In this document: in pieces, positions 9,330-54,467 of the stretch
Numbering within the stretch: position 1 is the stretch's first letter
How the letters are laid out: each line of letters starts with the position of its first letter
Assembly (NCBI GenBank): GCA_002899765.1
Contig: PPDH01000022.1
Coordinates: 65,688 to 127,604, forward strand
DNA from: Sulfurimonas sp.
GTDB taxonomy: Bacteria > Campylobacterota > Campylobacteria > Campylobacterales > Sulfurimonadaceae
Reading direction: 5' to 3'
DNA length: 61,917 nucleotides
The notes under the pieces: generated by a model
Database searches by the model: none
What the model was told of the DNA's origin: nothing
The model's input: only the letters and a program-made list of their open reading frames with translations
Translations under genes and position numbers: made by a program

Positions 9330-12131
9330 TTGCTAAAACTACTATTTATACTCTTTTATTCAACTCTGCTTTTGGCTTCTTCGCAAAAAATTTCCGTACA
9401 GCTTGAATGGAAACATCAGTTTGAATTTGCAGGATTTTATGCCGCTATCGAAAAAGGATACTACAAAGATATAGGTCTTGAAGTTGAGCTTAGAGAGTAT
9501 ACACAGGGCATAGATATAAGTGATGAAGTTATAAGCAAAAGAGCCACATTCGGTGTCTCCTCTTCCTCTTTAATTTTAGATAAACTTCAAAATAAACCCG
9601 TCGTACTGATAGCCTCTTACTTTAAACAAAATGCGTTGGCTTTGGCGGTAAAACCTGAAATAACCAATGTTGAGCAGCTAAGAGGCAAAAAAATCATGGC
9701 GCTTTCTTATGAGATAGACCATACCAGCATAGGAGTTCTTTTAAAAGAGGGCGGTTTAAAAGACGAGGACTACACTTTTATAGATCACGACTTTAGCATT
9801 GATGCCTTTAAAGCGGGCGATGTAGATGCCATGTCCATTTTTATATCTAATCAGCCCTATTTTTTGGATAAAGAAGGTGTCAAATACAATATCTTAAACC
9901 CTGCGGATTTTGGTATCTACTCTTATGATTTAGAACTCTTTACATCTGAAGAGTTTGCAAGAAAAAATTCCGACATGATTGAGAAGTTTGCAAAGGCGAC
10001 AAATAGAGGATGGGAGTACGCATTTAAACATAAAAAAGAGATTATTGACCTTATTTATGACAAATATACAAAAACAAAATCCAAAGAGTCGCTACTTTAT
10101 GAAGCTGAAGTAACACAAAAACTCTTTAAAACAAATATATTTAAAATCGGCGCAACAGTACCTGAGCTTATAAAATTAAATGCGCAGATGTACACAAGTC
10201 TGGGCTTAGTCCAAGATGGTTTTGAGTTCTCAAAACTGCTCTCAAGCTATATTTTTGAGAACTTGAAATATAGCGAAAATAGAGATTTTCAAGATAAAAA
10301 TATCATCCAAAACAATATTGCGGATCTAACATATGAAGAAAAGGATTATCTTAAAGAGAAAAAAATAATTACCGCATGTATAGATCCCGACTGGATGCCC
10401 TTTGAAAGCCTTCAAGAGGGCAAACACATTGGACTTAGCGCAGATTATCTTGATATTTTTCAAAAAAACCTATCCGTTGCCATAAAAGTAGTTAAAACCG
10501 ATAGCTGGATGGATTCTTTAGAGTTCGCAAAAATGCGAAAATGCGACATCTTACCCCTAGTAATGGAAACAAATGAGAGAAAAGAGTATCTTGATTTTAC
10601 ATCGCCTTATCTCAAAATACCCGTTGTTCTCGCAACGAGACCCAATGTAGCCTTTATTGCGGATTTCGATAATCTGGACAACAAAAAAATAGGCATACCA
10701 GAAGGCTAGTCTTATAATGAGATTTTAAAAAAAAGATATCCGCACTTAAATATTGTTGATGTTAAAAATGTAAAAGACGGTTTGGAAAAGGTAAGAAGAG
10801 GAGAGCTTTTTGGCTACATCGGAACACTGGCAAGCGTTGGTTATTTTTTACAAAAAGAGTTTTTTGGTGAACTTAAAATTACAGGTAAATTCGATGAGAT
10901 GTGGGAACTGGGAATCGGAGTAAGAAATAATGACCCAGTGCTATTGAGAATTCTTGAAAAAGCAATATTTTCGATCAGTGAAGATGAGAAGCAAAATATT
11001 TTAAACAAATGGGTCTCCATTAAGTATGAAAACGGTATCGATTACTCTCTTATATGGAAGATTTTAGCCCTCGCAATTTTCATAGCCCTAGGAGCAACTT
11101 ACTGGATTAGAAAACTCTCTATTTTAAACAAAGAGCTTAAAAATGCCAGAGAAAAAGCCGAAGAAGCAACAAAAATAAAATCAAACTTTTTAGCAAATAT
11201 GTCTCATGAGATTAGAACTCCGATGAACTCTATAGTCAGCATGACTTATCTTATTAAGAAAAATGTAACAACACAACCGCTGATTCATTATGTCCAAATG
11301 ATAGAGAGTGCCTCAAACAATCTGCTTCTGCTTCTCAATGATATTTTGGATTTATCAAAAATCGAAGCAAAAAAAATGCAAATAAACAAAAAAGAGTTTT
11401 ATCTTATAGAAGTACTTGACAGTATTAACAACTTAACAAAGATAAAAGCTCAGGAGAAAGGATTGGCATTTGAAATTATTTATGATAAATCTGATGCTAT
11501 ATATGTACTAGGAGACAGTCTAAGACTTATGCAAATCCTCTCAAATCTCTCACTAAATGCGGTTAAATTCACACAAGACGGATATGTCAAAATCTATGTA
11601 GATAAAATCGCTCAGAGCAGATTTAGATTTACCATCAGCGACACCGGAATCGGTTTAACACAAGATCAAATAGAGAAACTTTTTGACTCATTTACGCAAG
11701 CCGATGAGAGTATTACCAGAAAGTACGGCGGAACGGGACTCGGACTTGCAATCTGCAAAGAACTGGTTGCGCTAATGCAGGGTAAAATATGGGTTGAGAG
11801 CACTTTTGGTCAAGGAAGCAGATTTATATTTGAAGTTACACTCCAAGAAGTTGCGCCTATATTAGAAAATAAGATAAAAAGCGATACGCAGAGTCTCACT
11901 CAAAAGAAGATAAAAAACACTCTTCACATAGACAAAGAACATAGAGACGCGCTCTTTTTAAAACTAAAAAACGCAGTAACTTCAAGAAGACCTAAGACAT
12001 GTGAACCTATAATCAGTGAAATAGAAAAATACGTCCTAGAAGATGAAGATGAAGTAGTGTTTGAAAAAGTAAAAAGATTAGTTCAAAAATATCAATTTAA
12101 TGAAGCAATGGAGATTCTTAATGCGCAGTAA
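9330..12131 (+). pseudogene. Sensor histidine kinase with NMT1 and SBP_3 periplasmic domains, broken by an in-frame TAG
   Basis: Read through one TAG (10707-10709, codon 460), this is a 933-codon gene. A signal peptide (1-20) is followed by an NMT1/THI5-like binding domain (about 25-245; begins VQLEWKHQFEFAGFYAAIEK), a family-3 solute-binding domain (about 355-570), a membrane helix (573-591), a HisKA domain with catalytic His626 in MSHEIRTPMNS, and a HATPase with ISDTGIG and GGTGLGLAI. The TAG lies inside the second binding domain, between IGIPEG and SYNEILKKRYP; frame and similarity continue unchanged. If real, it would separate sensor from kinase. TTG at 9330 is chosen because AAAGGA (9318-9323) precedes it and the signal peptide begins there. 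It overlaps the next gene by 11 nt. Confidence 0.8.
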
Positions 12132-23731: not shown

Positions 23732-24210
23732 TATGTATCCTCTTTGTATAGCCCAACGCTGGCTGAAATTTGGTAATTTTTTAAAACTTCTACGAGAGAG
23801 TCCAACTTGTCTCTCTCTTTTGAGTAAATTAGCAACTCCGCACCATTCTTATCTTTTTTTAGATAATACTTTAGTTGATGCTGTCTCAACTCCTCTTTTA
23901 AGCAGAAGAGTTGATAAGGGTCAGCTATCGATGCAGAGAGTTTATATATGGTTCTACTTGCTACTTTCTCATTAAAATCAACTTGAATAAGTACTTCATT
24001 TACCGGATAAAAGTATCCCAATCTCTCTGTTTTAGAAAAACTGTTTAACCAAATATTTTTCGGCTCTTTTACAACAACTTCACTTTTATGTTAGAGTGGA
24101 GTCAAGTTAACGGGAGTTTCATTAGAGTTAATTGAAATAAGAAAAAAAACAACAAAAACAGCTACCCCTACTGCGATAAGCAGGGTTAGCCATTTTAAAT
24201 TTTTTTGCAC
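23731..24210 (-). pseudogene. Small membrane-anchored hypothetical protein, broken by an in-frame TAA
   Basis: From GTG at 24210 the frame gives a lysine-containing start and a strong membrane helix (about residues 8-26), then meets TAA at 24091-24093 (codon 40) and continues open for another 119 codons to the serA junction. The whole would be 159 residues with a soluble C-terminal domain (about 60-159; KVASRTIYKLSASIADPYQL). I do not recognise the family. The reading between the rpsA stop and serA start is otherwise tight (5 nt and 1 nt), as expected for a true gene with one damaged codon. GAA in place of TAA would restore it. Confidence 0.6.
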
Positions 24211-26801: not shown

Positions 26802-28082
26802 CTATGAAAACTCTACTTTTGTAATCTTTTGCAAAAGTTCAAAAAAGTTTGGAAAAGAGGTGTTTATACAATCTAAATCCGTTACATTCATCCCGCATCT
26901 AAGTCCTGCAATAATAAAGCTCATAGCAATCCTATGGTCTCCATGACTATCGATAACAGAGGCTTTAAGCTCGCCGCCTTTTACGCTGTATCCGTCATGA
27001 ACTTCATCTACTTCAATGCCGCAAGCTCTAAGTCCATTCACTACGGTAGAGATTCTATCGCTCTCTTTTACTCTAAGCTCCTCAGCATTTTTTACGACAC
27101 TTACTCCGTCTGCACATGCAAAAGCTATAGAGAGTGCCGGAAGTTCATCTATAAGCCAAGAGATATTATCTTCAACCGTTATCGCTTTTAGGGGAGCATA
27201 TTTTACATGTATATTGCCGATTGGCTCGTACTTGTTATCGGTAGTTTCATAAGTTATATCTGCACCCATTTTCTCTAATGCTCTAAAAGCTTCAATGCGT
27301 GTCGGATTTAAAGTAACACCTTCTAACAGCACATCGGAATCGGGTGTGATAGCAGCTGCGACTGCAAAGAAAAATGCGCTTGATGGGTCAGAGGGAACTC
27401 TTATCTTCAGCGGAGAGAGAAGCTTTTTCATAGGCTTTATTCTCGTTGTCAAACCATCAACTTCTATCTCTGCACCCATTCCTTTTAACATTCTTTCCGT
27501 ATGGTCGCGGCTAAGTTCAGGTTCACTGTAACTGCATTCACCGTCTGCTCTAAGAGCCGCTAAAATCATTGCGCTCTTAACTTGTGCCGAAGCTATTTTA
27601 CTCTCATAATCAAATGCTCTAAGTGATGCACCGCGTATACTCAAAGGAGCTAAATCACCGTTGTTTCTTCCGTCTAGTTTTGCACCGATATCACGCAAAG
27701 GTGCAGTCACTCTCTTCATCGGACGACGTCTTAAATACTCATCCCCACTTAAAACAAAATGCCCCTCAGCCGAACTTAAAAGTCCGCAAAAAAGCCTCAT
27801 TCCTGTTCCTGAGTTACCACAATCAAGAATTTCACTGCTCTCTTTTATGCCCTCAGAACTTATTTTTATAGTTACACCGTCATCGACGATATAAGCACCA
27901 AGATTTTTTACTATATTTAGAGTATTTAGCGTATCTTCGGCTCTTAAAAAATTCTCTATCTCGCTTGTTCCATCTGCAAGCATCGCGAACATGGCTGATC
28001 TGTGAGATATAGATTTATCAGGTGCAATCTCTGCTATAGCAAGTGAAAATGGTGATGCTTTTATAACTTTTACACTGCTCAT
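26802..28082 (-). CDS. aroA: 3-phosphoshikimate 1-carboxyvinyltransferase (EPSP synthase)
   Basis: AroA transfers the enolpyruvyl group of PEP to shikimate 3-phosphate in the pathway to chorismate. The 426-residue two-domain protein shows [19 protein letters not shown] (residues about 19-37), the PEP-loop [51 protein letters not shown] and [11 protein letters not shown]. The ATG overlaps the pheT stop by 4 nt (ATGA). Confidence 0.96.
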
Positions 28083-30418
28083 CTAATAGTAATCCCCAAT
28101 TTATCTTTCAGTGCATCTAGTATACTCTGCATTGATTTTGTCATGTCTTCTTCTTCAAGTGTTTTTTCCATTGATTGCAAAATAAACCTGATAGTCAAAC
28201 TTATATTTTCACCTAAAGATTAATCACTGTATTTATCTACAGGATAGAAGCGGACAAGATGCTCTACAGAAGACTCCTCTATAACACTCTTAACTTTTTC
28301 ATAATGCATCTCTTTTGGCATAACCAAACTCAAATCCCTGTATGATGCCTGATATTTTGAGCTGTTTTTTGCAGTTTTTAATCCGCTTGGAAGCTTTGAG
28401 AAATCTAACTCACACATATATGTAATATCCAAATCATAACTATCTTCTACATCGGGATGAACACGAAACAGCTCGCCTACAACTTCGTTCTCAATAACTA
28501 TTTGAGCGGACTGGAAAGGATGTGAGAGCGAGTGTGCGGTTTTAAACTCTCTAAGTTCAAACTCACCTATTATGTTTGAAATCTTCTGAACAAAAAATCC
28601 AAAATCTACCTTTGAAGGCTTGCCCGCATTTGACAAACTTTGAGACTCTCTGTCTCCCGAAAAAAGCATCGCCATCTTCATGGACTCTTCTCTTTGAGGA
28701 TTAAATACAGAACCCACTTCAAAAAGTTTTACCGACAAATATCCGTTTTTAGAGTTATTTGATGCAGCTCTAAGAAGACCTGTAAGAAGGGTAGACCTTA
28801 AAGTATCAAGTGTATTTACAATCGGATTAAGAAGCTCTTTGGCATCTTCAACTGTTTCAAATCCATACTGTTATAAAACTCTCTTCTCGTCAAAAACAAA
28901 GTGAACAGACTCAAAAAAGCCGCTATACGCTGCTTTGTGTCTATATTGGCTCTTCTTTTTATAAGTAAAATAATCATCTTTTAGCTTGTTTTCTTCCGTA
29001 AAGCTAAAGGGCTTTGATGGAATATTGTCAATACCTACAAGACGAACAATTTCCTCAACTATATCTTGCTTATTTGATATATCATGTCTAAATTTAGCAA
29101 CTGAGACAACAAAGTTGTTAGCTGAGGATTTTGTAGTATCAAAACCGAGATTTTTAAGTATCTTTGTTATTTTAAGCTTATCAATATTTGCGCCGATTAT
29201 CTCATCTATCTCTTTTTTACTTACACTTATAATTTTATCTTCATGCAAATCACCGAGTTCAATTGTTCCACCGAAAAAAGATGAAGCTTAATTTGACTCC
29301 AATGCAGCGATACAGTAAGAGAGTCCGATGTTTAACTCAGGTTCACTTCCTCTTGATGTTCTGTAGTACATAGGACCTGAAACCATTTTTACTTCTTGCA
29401 TTTTTTTAGAGATTATATCAGGCGGAATATAGCTGGCTTCTATAAGGACAACACCATTCTCAAGACTTACCTTGGAGGCATCTTCTTGAATAATTCCTAC
29501 CGTAGATGCTTTTTTGTTATCTTTAGTCATTATGGACGCATATCCATTTTCATCCTGGCAAAGCGATACTTTTGCCAAAACTTCATCTTTAGCACAGAAA
29601 AATTTATGGTCATACGCTCTTAAAATAACGCCGCTGCTATGTGTTGCATAGTGCATAAGAGATTCAATATCACTCTCTTTTGTATTTTCTATTTGCGCTA
29701 GTCTTAACTTTACTATAAAAGGGAGTTTTAAATCTTTTAAATCAACTGCTTTATAGAGAAGATTTACATTCAAATTATTTTCATGCGAAAGAGATAAAAT
29801 TCTTCCTATCCCAATCCTTTTGTCATCATTCTCTTCTGTTTTTTCTTCTTTTAGAGATTTATCATAAGCCGCGCACAAATCTCTTGCTATTCCACGAATA
29901 CTTAAACAATCCCCGCGATTAGCCGTAAGCTCTATCTCTATTAAATCATCACTAAATATCGGGTTTTCACAAACTTCTTCGCCTAAAGCGTAAGAACCGA
30001 TGCTGCTGTCTAACTCAATTATTCCGGCATTCATCTCTTCTAAGCCGATTTCTTTAGCCGAACAAATCATCCCCTCTGATTCGACTCCGCGAAGTTTTAC
30101 AGGCTTTATTGTTATCCCGTTTGGCATAACTGCACCGATTGTTGCAACGACAACATCTAGTCCTGCTCTTACATTTGAAGCCCCGCATACTATTTGACGC
30201 GTACTTGTACCGATATCAACAAGACAAATATTTAATTTATCTGCATCAGGATGTTTTTTACACTCCAAAACTCTGCCAAATACTATCTTTTTTGGAACTT
30301 CATACGTTGATATACTGTCTACTTCCAAACCTATGGAGTTAAATTTTTTTACCAGTTCATCCGTAGATATATTACTTAAATCTACCCATTCATTCAACCA
30401 ACTTCTAGTAACTATCAT
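28079..30418 (-). pseudogene. pheT: Phenylalanine-tRNA ligase beta subunit with three in-frame TAA codons
   Basis: The full frame from ATG 30418 to TGA 28079-28081 is 779 codons, the normal length of PheT, with no frameshift, but TAA interrupts it at codon 377 (29288-29290), codon 516 (28871-28873) and codon 733 (28220-28222). The EMAP/OB tRNA-binding region (about 40-150; KHPDADKLNICLVDIG), B3/4 editing domain, B5 domain and the FDX-ACB anticodon-binding domain at the C-terminus are all recognisable on either side of the stops. Truncation at 376 would remove the dimer core, so the cell could not charge tRNA-Phe. GAA to TAA at each place is the simplest reading; the last site reads YSD-stop-SLGENISLTIRF. 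Its partner pheS is immediately upstream. Confidence 0.85.
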
Positions 30419-31416
30419 TGAAACTGCTCCAGCAACTTAATATCTCCTTCAAAGAGTGAACGAAGATCCCCTATATGATGAATAAGCATCGCAAATCTTT
30501 CGACTCCAAGACCAAAAGCATATCCACTGACATTTTCATATTTTACTGCTTCAAAGACATTAGGATCTACGATTCCGCACCCCAGTACTTCCAGCCAGCC
30601 TGTTTTTGAACATACCCTGCACCCTTTGCCTTTGCAAAATACACAGGAGATATCAACCTCTGCCGAAGGTTCCGTAAAAGGGAAGAAACTAGGACGAAAA
30701 CGAACATCAACATCACCAAACATGTACTTTAAAAAATCCTCTAGGATAAATTTTAAGTTTGCAAAAGAGACTTTGCCTTGTGCATCAACCAGCAATCCTT
30801 CAACTTGATGAAACATCGGCGTATGCGTAATGTCATAATCTCTTCTAAAAACCGCCCCAGGAGCTATCATGCGAATTGGCGGCTTTGTACTCATCATAGT
30901 TCTTATTTGAACCGGTGACGTATGCGTTCGAAGCAACATCTCGTCTTTAAAATAGAAAGTATCTTGCATGTCGCGGGCAGGATGATATTTTGGAAGGTTT
31001 AGAGCCTCAAAGTTGTTAAAATCATCCTCTACCATCGTTCCTGTTTTTACCGCAAAATTCATAGATGAAAAATACTCAACAATTCTGTCCATGGTCTCCA
31101 TAACAGGATGAAGCGCGCCGGATTCCGATTTTGAACTATACATAGAAACGTCGATTGATTCTGCTCTCATGTGTGCTTCTAACTCTAATGTTTGAAGAAC
31201 CGTCTTTCTATGCGTGAGTTCGTTCATCAGCGCACTTTTATGCGTGTTTAACTCTTGTGCTATTTTTGATTTTTCTTCATCGGATGCAGTTTTCATTTTG
31301 GCAAATTCTGCCGTTAAAACACCCTTTTTTCCGAACACTGCTATACGAATCTCTTCGATTCTATCAACACTCTGTGCTTCTTTTATTGCGTCATACCATT
31401 CTTTCAATAGACTCAC
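30415..31416 (-). CDS. pheS: Phenylalanine-tRNA ligase alpha subunit
   Basis: PheS is the catalytic subunit of the alpha2-beta2 synthetase. The 333-residue protein has an N-terminal coiled-coil arm (1-85) and the class II core: motif 2 [20 protein letters not shown], the Cys-rich [12 protein letters not shown] knuckle, and motif 3 [14 protein letters not shown]. It starts with GTG at 31416; a leader hairpin lies close upstream. It overlaps pheT by 4 nt, as is usual for this pair. Confidence 0.95.
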
Positions 31417-33128: not shown

Positions 33129-33198
33129 CCAATGGCATACTCCATGCCATTGGGGTTGTAGGGACTTCAGTCCCTGCCAACAAAACGAAGTTTTGTTG
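33129..33198. terminator. Three tandem hairpins between the convergent transglycosylase and OsmC genes
   Basis: CCAATGGCAT/ATGCCATTGG (33129-33138 and 33144-33153), GGGAC/GTCCC (33161-33165 and 33170-33174) and CAACAAAAC/GTTTTGTTG (33178-33186 and 33190-33198) follow one another with short loops. They lie between convergent stops; the last has no T-tract of its own, so the cluster is best called a terminator region or palindromic repeat. Confidence 0.45.
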
Positions 33199-52909: not shown

Positions 52910-54467
52910 ACTCTACAGCCCTGCTCTCTCGAATAACATTTACTTTTATATCACCTGGATACTGAACCTTTTGCTCTATCTCTTTTGCTATCTCTTTTGC
53001 CATTAAAACAGACTCATCGTCATTTACCAAAGAAGCGTTTACGATTACCCTTACTTCACGTCCTGCATTGATTGCGTACGCCTGCTTTACGCCGATATGC
53101 GCAGATGCTATCTCTTCTATCTCGGTCACTCTTTTTAAGAAACTCTCAAGTACTTCTCGTCTGGCACCAGGTCTTGCAGCTGAGAGCACATCCGCAGCAC
53201 AAACTGCACCACACTCTATTGAGTTGATATCTTCATGTCAATGGTGTGCGTAAATTGCATTTATAACTACACTATCTTCATCATATCGGGTACAAATAGC
53301 TGCGCCCAAATCAACATGATTTCCGTCATGGTCGTGGGTAAGCGCTTTACCTATATCATGTAAAAGTCCTGCTCTTTTTGCGAGCTTTACATTTCCACCC
53401 ATCTCCGCTGTCATAATTCCGGCCAAATGCGCAACTTCAAGAGTATGCGCAAGCGCGTTTTGTCCATAGCTTGCACGATAACGAAGTTTTCCAATAAGCT
53501 TGACCAACTCAGGATGCATGATTCCTATATCCAAATCAGCCAATATCTCTTCGCCTTCACTTAGTATTTCAGACTCAAACTCATCACAAACTTTAGTGTA
53601 AATCTCTTCAATACGAGCCGGCTGAATACGCCCGTCTTCTATAAGTAATTCTATTGTTTTTTTTGCAATTGCGCGTCTGTAAAGATTAAAACTGCTGATG
53701 AGAATCGCATTTGGCGTATCATCAATAATAATATCAACACCCAAAAGAGTCTCAAGAGTTTTAATATTTCTTCCCTCTTTACCTATGATGCGCCCTTTGA
53801 GCTCATCGTCATTTAGGTGGATAAGGTTTGTTAATCTCTCTGCGGCAAATTCTCCTGCATATCTGCTTGTAGCCTGAGCCAAAATATAATTAGCTCTTTT
53901 TTTAGCCTCTGTTTTTGCCTCATTTTCATAACGTCTGACTACATGTGCTATATCCCCGCGTGATTTCTCTTCTACTTTTTCAAGCAAAACGGCTTTAGCT
54001 TCCTCTTTTGTCATACCTGCACAATGCTCTATTGCATTGAGCGCTTCGTCAATTTTTTGTTCATATCTTTTTTTTAGTGAGTTTAGAGATTTTTCATTTC
54101 TTTTTAAATCAACTTGTCTAGATTTTAAAACAGCCACTTCATCTTGAAGCCTTCTCTCTTCATTCTGTTTGTAACGTTTAAAATTTTGCTCTTTTTTTGC
54201 AATATCGTCTTCTCTTTGAAAGAGGTCTGCTTTAGCTTTATCTTTAGCACTCTCGTAAAGCTTTGTTGCCTCTAGCTCAATCTCTTGATATTTAATATTG
54301 GCTTTATATAAAAGCAACTGCGCTTCATTTTCTATCGCACTTGCTTGAGCTTTAGCTTTTTCGACATATATATCAAAGTTAGCATTCGTAATTTTTTTAG
54401 AGATTAAAAATCCAACAAGCCCACTAATGGAAGCAATAGAGCCTCCAATTAGTATCTCGTTTAACAT
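52899..54467 (-). pseudogene. rny: Ribonuclease Y, broken by an in-frame TGA
   Basis: Read through TGA at 53238-53240 (codon 410), the frame encodes 522 residues, the normal RNase Y length. It has an N-terminal membrane helix (1-22), a long coiled-coil (25-200), a KH domain with GRIIGKEGRNIKTLETLLG, and an HD domain with AGLLHDIGKALTHDHDG and, across the stop, IYAHH-stop-HEDINSIECGAVC then DVLSAARPGARREVLESF. Other RNase Y proteins have Gly after the HH pair (HHGD in B. subtilis), so GGA to TGA explains the stop. It would cut mRNA endonucleolytically at the membrane. It follows the 5-FTHF ligase gene by 1 nt. Confidence 0.85.

Follow-up and report, generated by a model that had tools for sequence, protein, structure and literature searches.

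In-frame TAA codons in pheT of a Sulfurimonas draft genome: probable oxidation-type damage or consensus error amid a genome-wide excess of G:C>T:A changes

Introduction

In a draft genome of Sulfurimonas, the gene pheT runs on the minus strand (30418–28079) as a single frame of 779 codons, without indel, that opens with ATG, closes with TGA, and contains TAA at codons 377, 516, and 733. These positions, like those in Table 1, refer to the window, which is the whole stretch of 61,917 bases that was analyzed and corresponds to C27:65688–127604 of the draft genome (G000). The question raised by this locus is whether the three stops belong to the pheT of a living cell, be it as real mutations, as codons decoded as sense, or as marks of a pseudogene backed by a second copy, or whether they entered the sequence as damage or error. 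A preliminary description, in which the full-length frame and its three stops had been correctly reported, had pointed to wrong bases, a second pheT, or a damaged template or mixed population as possible origins, an interpretation that the present analysis partly supports.

Materials and Methods

The assembly comprises 2,390,858 bases in 45 contigs and is 98.48% complete and 3.11% contaminated. Genome-wide comparisons were based on 537,604 bases of this assembly (22% of the genome) and 685,415 bases of G005, the nearest relative found, whose pheT is 88% identical and part of whose contig C2 is collinear with contig C27 of the genome under study. G134, G113, G008, and G114 served as further relatives. 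The raw count of in-frame stops was 42, of which 34 were retained after exclusion of the eight located 12 codons or fewer from a gene end. The type of substitution was read from relatives carrying a codon one step away from the stop; five further Glu or Ser stops without such a relative were assigned by rule, and two more were left unassigned. Missense changes with a BLOSUM62 score of −2 or lower were considered radical and were counted in columns invariant across three or more relatives, with multi-step changes excluded from the Fisher test. Stop-bearing genes were named by scanning 20 of the 30 broken genes, in the form of their intact G005 copies, against NCBIfam, while pheS is named after the preliminary description and its position. 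Residues at the pheT sites were taken from 33 distinct congener sequences, three duplicate loci having been dropped. An ab initio coding-potential scan, which gave 17 candidates in 537 kb of the genome under study and, for G005, 7 in 285 kb, with many located at gene junctions, was too weak for counting stops and served only to direct attention to broken genes such as gyrA.

The pheT Locus

The pheT frame matches TIGR00472 over profile positions 1–798 with 614.5 bits (cut-off 402.65), as a full-length member of the family whose frame is interrupted by the three TAA codons; the intact pheT of G005 reaches 629.1 bits. Among the matches listed, 123 of 135 genus genomes carry a member of the pheT family above the cut-off, and the genome under study alone shows stops. 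Immediately upstream, pheS is an open frame, as had been described, and its counterpart in G005 is 94.6% identical and likewise without stops.

Table 1. Features of the window, with positions counted from its first base.
Feature	Position	Strand	Remark
pheT, phenylalanine--tRNA ligase beta subunit	28079..30418	-	TIGR00472 match; three TAA inside 779 codons
TAA at pheT codon 377	29288..29290	-	Ser in 33/33 distinct congener sequences
TAA at pheT codon 516	28871..28873	-	Glu (GAG) in two nearest relatives
TAA at pheT codon 733	28220..28222	-	Glu in 24/33 congener sequences
pheT codon 221 missense, Leu here	29756..29758	-	C27:95445; Arg in 28/33 congeners
pheS, 333 aa frame directly upstream of pheT	30415..31416	-	open reading frame
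TGA at rny (ribonuclease Y) codon 410	53238..53240	-	C27:118927; Gly in 4/4 relatives
TAA at codon 40, 159-aa protein gene	24091..24093	-	C27:89780; Glu in 3/4 relatives
TAG at codon 460, 931-aa gene	10707..10709	+	C27:76394; Tyr in one relative compared

Codon 377 is a Ser codon in all 33 congener sequences (TCT in 16, TCA in 10, TCC in 4, and TCG in 3), and its stop is a C>A change, i.e., one of the G:C>T:A type. Codon 516 is mixed (Gln 12, Asn 9, Glu 8, Lys 3, His 1), while codon 733 is mostly Glu. If the ancestral residue was Glu, as the two nearest relatives favor for codon 516 and most congeners for codon 733, both of these stops would be G>T changes; scored by the first one-step relative, codon 516 is a C>T and codon 733 an A>T change. 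The earlier proposal of a Glu codon (GAA) one base from each stop holds for codon 733 and probably for codon 516, and fails for codon 377. Codon 221 additionally shows radical missense of the G:C>T:A type, to Leu, a residue found in one of the 33 congeners. Outside the stop at codon 377, pheT deviates at 2 of the 220 columns that are invariant in the 33 congeners.

A second pheT, which had been suggested as a way out, was not found by profile search in the 45 contigs, about 1.5% of the genome possibly being missing from them; the other match to the model is weak (30.9 bits; C2:160629–160940) and lies inside metG. Nor does any genus genome possess a second full-length copy among the matches listed. 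A plasmid search with the read-through PheT retrieved 54 records with a relative, which have no bearing on the stops. The window also harbors (33152–33187) a dispersed repeat that is probably intergenic and about 36–165 bases long; it is found at L138:15766–15930 as well, is matched in 5 places in the 537 kb sample and about 20 in G005, and recurs in other congeners.

Internal Stops across the Genome

A first comparison of 70 genes already revealed stops outside pheT, and metG, on another contig, was broken too. Of the 230 genes (76,896 codons) in the full sample, 30 contain internal stops, 34 in total. The suggestion of wrong bases or a damaged template is supported, although not as a matter of pheT, the effect being genome-wide. 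The stops comprise 18 TAA, 12 TAG, and 4 TGA, and the corresponding codons of G005 specify Glu in 15 cases, Ser in 9, Gly in 4, Lys in 2, and Tyr, Trp, Thr, and Arg in one each. Among the stop-bearing genes, pheT, metG, rpoD, secA, aspS, rny, sdhA/frdA, acnB, icd, ychF, glmU, aroB, mtaB, leuB, hisB, dxr, and mltG score above the curated cut-offs, and an FtsH-like, an LptF-like, and a dehydrogenase gene score below them. Several of these genes (pheT, metG, aspS, rpoD, and secA) are usually essential. In aspS, an over-extended start probably accounts for the stop at codon 15, as a stop is present there in two relatives too, while the second stop, at codon 298, replaces a residue that is Glu in 4/4 relatives. 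The 931-aa gene of the window combines, judged by eye, a transporter-like sensor part with a histidine-kinase-like C-terminus, and its TAG is not of the G:C>T:A type. Outside the 230-gene set, gyrA (identified by eye; L151:6000–12000, minus strand) is also broken, by a TAA in the context VTLAQ-stop-EKQKRGGKGKIA.

The inner stops of the relatives (3 in G134, 2 in G113, none in G114, and 3 in G008) all lie within the first 51 codons and belong to four ORFs. In the genome under study, stops occur at no lower frequency in genes with 92% identity or more (9 per 15,602 codons) than in the whole set (33 per 71,606). There are 27 genes with one stop, two with two, and one with three, a scatter compatible with chance, as a gene with three or more stops appeared in 18% of simulations. 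The two large contigs sampled are affected at similar rates, with 16 events on C27 vs. 20.6 expected and 37 on C2 vs. 31.3 expected. The rpoB frame (1,382 codons) contains no stop, where about 0.6 would be expected. The 230 genes compared yielded no candidate for a frameshift, and long-read indel error was rejected on these grounds.

Substitution Spectrum and Missense Changes

Of the 27 stops with a one-step relative, G:C>T:A changes account for 21 (on the coding strand, 15 G>T and 6 C>A) and other steps for the remaining 6, whereas only 10,170 of the 32,114 possible stop routes (32%) are of this type (P = 1.1e-6). With the five rule-assigned stops included, the count rises to 26 of 34 (P = 1e-7), which leaves eight stops of other or unresolved type. 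Random error of all types was considered and rejected, since the routes from Lys, Tyr, Leu, and Gln codons make up 18,633 of the 32,114, yet only two Lys and one Tyr are found among the 34 stops. No context preference was seen in 57 events, including for CCG, the context linked with OxoG artefacts. Moreover, neighboring events do not cluster by strand (7 on the same and 7 on different strands), so that there is no sign of the pattern that damage to one strand of single long molecules would leave.

The same type of change is enriched among missense substitutions. Radical G:C>T:A missense changes number 29 in 29,044 invariant columns of the genome under study, compared to 5 in 33,117 in G005, 10 in 31,972 in G134, 6 in 28,899 in G113, 15 in 31,618 in G008, and 2 in 10,810 in G114, an excess with a Fisher P of 6e-8 against all five relatives. 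The other radical single steps number 15 vs. 26, 32, 27, 50, and 2, in the same order, and the multi-step changes, which were set aside, 27 vs. 41, 70, 84, 111, and 4. With the threshold lowered to a BLOSUM62 score of −3 or less, 14 changes stand against 2, 1, 1, 4, and 1 (P = 3e-6). Without any selection, the 14 stops in these columns would together predict 35 such radical missense changes, and the 10 clear G:C>T:A stops about 25. When mild changes are included, the excess of G:C>T:A missense is about 37 vs. about 67 expected from the 10 stops, a figure with a large error and a background estimated from the relatives' share. The G:C>T:A share of missense changes amounts to 0.17–0.19 in this genome and 0.10–0.13 in G005 and G134; G114 has a similar share to the former (14 of 78, i.e., few changes) and yet no stops. 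An earlier view, according to which stops occur without accompanying missense, was rejected, as its basis was a single gene, pheT, together with a noisy comparison of two genomes, and the larger polarized test found the missense.

Oxidation-Type Damage or Consensus Error

The explanation that we consider highly likely is that the pheT stops are 8-oxoguanine-type damage or consensus error in the assembly and not new biology, and the three TAA codons are very probably absent from the pheT of the living cell. Extrapolated from the 22% sample, the assembly would carry some 1,900–2,400 unselected G:C>T:A changes, equivalent to about 0.22–0.28% of its G/C positions. In the mechanism considered likely, guanines of the DNA would be oxidized in the sample or during extraction or library making, and the resulting 8-oxoguanine would be read as T, giving rise to G:C>T:A changes. 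These could be fixed in the consensus through low coverage or through consensus calling that accepts minor alleles, and they would convert codons for Glu, Gly, and Ser to stops, and those for Gly, Asp, Trp, Arg, and Ser to damaging missense, in usually essential and other genes alike. Both oxidation as the cause and the step of entry into the consensus are inferred from the pattern of changes; minor alleles accepted by the consensus caller, or amplification of both strands, would fit this pattern better than damage to one strand.

Damage of this kind, fixed in the consensus, accounts for the spectrum of changes, their indifference to gene function, their scatter, and the absence of frameshifts. 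As for known OxoG sequencing artefacts, G>T and C>A changes dominate the excess, among stops and radical missense alike, and are scattered and unselected, without frameshifts; stop rates are blind to gene function and conservation, with usually essential genes hit. On the other hand, OxoG artefacts are normally found at low fraction in reads, whereas here the changes are in the consensus and without preference for CCG. The apparently near-clean tRNA genes (see below), the whole rpoB, and the missense share of G114 speak against a simple uniform artefact, as do the low total excess of missense, the lack of strand clustering, and the eight stops of other or unresolved type. Ex vivo oxidation of guanine giving G>T changes is described in PMC12390751, and a search of the open-licence literature found, among the papers listed, none on an OxoG-like effect in an assembled genome.

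Alternative Explanations

The best biological rival is that the changes are real mutations of a lineage devoid of GO repair (mutY and fpg/mutM), the assembly having caught a mutating or dying population, which we regard as improbable. G:C>T:A dominance is the change type to be expected in such a lineage, and PMC2865507 reports a 145-fold higher mutant frequency in E. coli mutM mutY in a GC-to-TA reversion test. The 98.48% complete genome under study contains only EndoIII-like and weaker matches to the mutY model, the best hit (3e-23) being taken as EndoIII, and no match to the fpg/mutM model, which was searched in this genome alone; by model matches, both genes are absent. One of the weaker mutY hits lies in a 261-aa frame (L246:2348–3133), whose similarity to the model is low (7e-7) and which has possible counterparts in G005 and G134; it is perhaps another DNA glycosylase. 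Strong mutY matches (E < 1e-78) occur in 12 of the 19 genomes of the genus sample, all but one of them falling just below the curated cut-off, and seven genomes, including G005 and G134, lack one; with mutY thus patchy, such genomes would be suited to the study of mutation spectra.

The tRNA genes are a further point in favor of real mutations, as they look nearly clean. In the 39 of 40 compared, 29 are identical to that of a relative, and there is at most one unpaired G:C>T:A change, vs. 4.7 expected at 0.28% of G/C (P(<=1) = 0.05). This change is G21T in a divergent tRNA-Leu, while the other two seem, by eye, to form a compensatory pair. However, G005 and G134 are also without mutY and show neither comparable stops nor as high a missense share, which means that the effect is not common to the mutY-less sisters. 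Furthermore, about 2,000 unselected changes, with stops in pheT, metG, aspS, rpoD, and secA at once, would be incompatible with a dividing cell. The genome therefore resembles a MutM/MutY-deficient mutator in its G:C>T:A spectrum and in the absence of mutY and fpg, and differs from it in changes that look unselected and would be jointly lethal. A stronger version, in which a Sulfurimonas lacking MutY and MutM piles up real G:C>T:A changes so rapidly in its habitat that a population genome contains about 2,000, many of them lethal, with most of the cells sampled being genetically dead or sustained by multiple genome copies, is more doubtful still.

Decoding of TAA, TAG, and TGA as sense within genes is far less probable. 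Full-length frames without indels would suit it, and in-frame stops of bacteria under purifying selection, presumably read through, are described by Belinky et al. 2021 (PMC7918605), a system that shares with the present one intact frames with internal stops. Unlike in that system, one mutation type dominates here, radical missense accompanies the stops, and the stops are not shared with the relatives compared. All three stop codons are involved, at sites of eight residue types, with no pattern of one stop for one residue. No stop anticodon was found among the 40 tRNAs typed, a set from which tRNA-Ile and tRNA-Ala are absent, and no loss of a release factor was found, prfA and a second match, taken as prfB, both being open. 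Importantly for this alternative, a cell tolerating stops by readthrough should still purge harmful missense of the same type, and such missense remains at a near-unselected level. Finally, a true pheT pseudogene with a functional copy in the unassembled part has hardly any probability. In its favor, a little sequence may be missing from an assembly of this completeness in 45 contigs; against it, only one pheT is found there and no second full-length copy in genus genomes among the matches listed, similar stops affect 29 other genes, several of them usually essential, and pheT is otherwise conserved.

Conclusions

With damage or consensus error as the preferred reading, a completeness score of 98.5% does not by itself reveal that the draft carries about one wrong substitution per kilobase, predominantly of a single chemical type. 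Pseudogene calls, dN/dS estimates, selection scans, and claims of recoding derived from such a genome would mislead. A joint test of stops and radical missense changes of the same type, at conserved residues and in comparison with relatives, can flag such genomes without recourse to reads.
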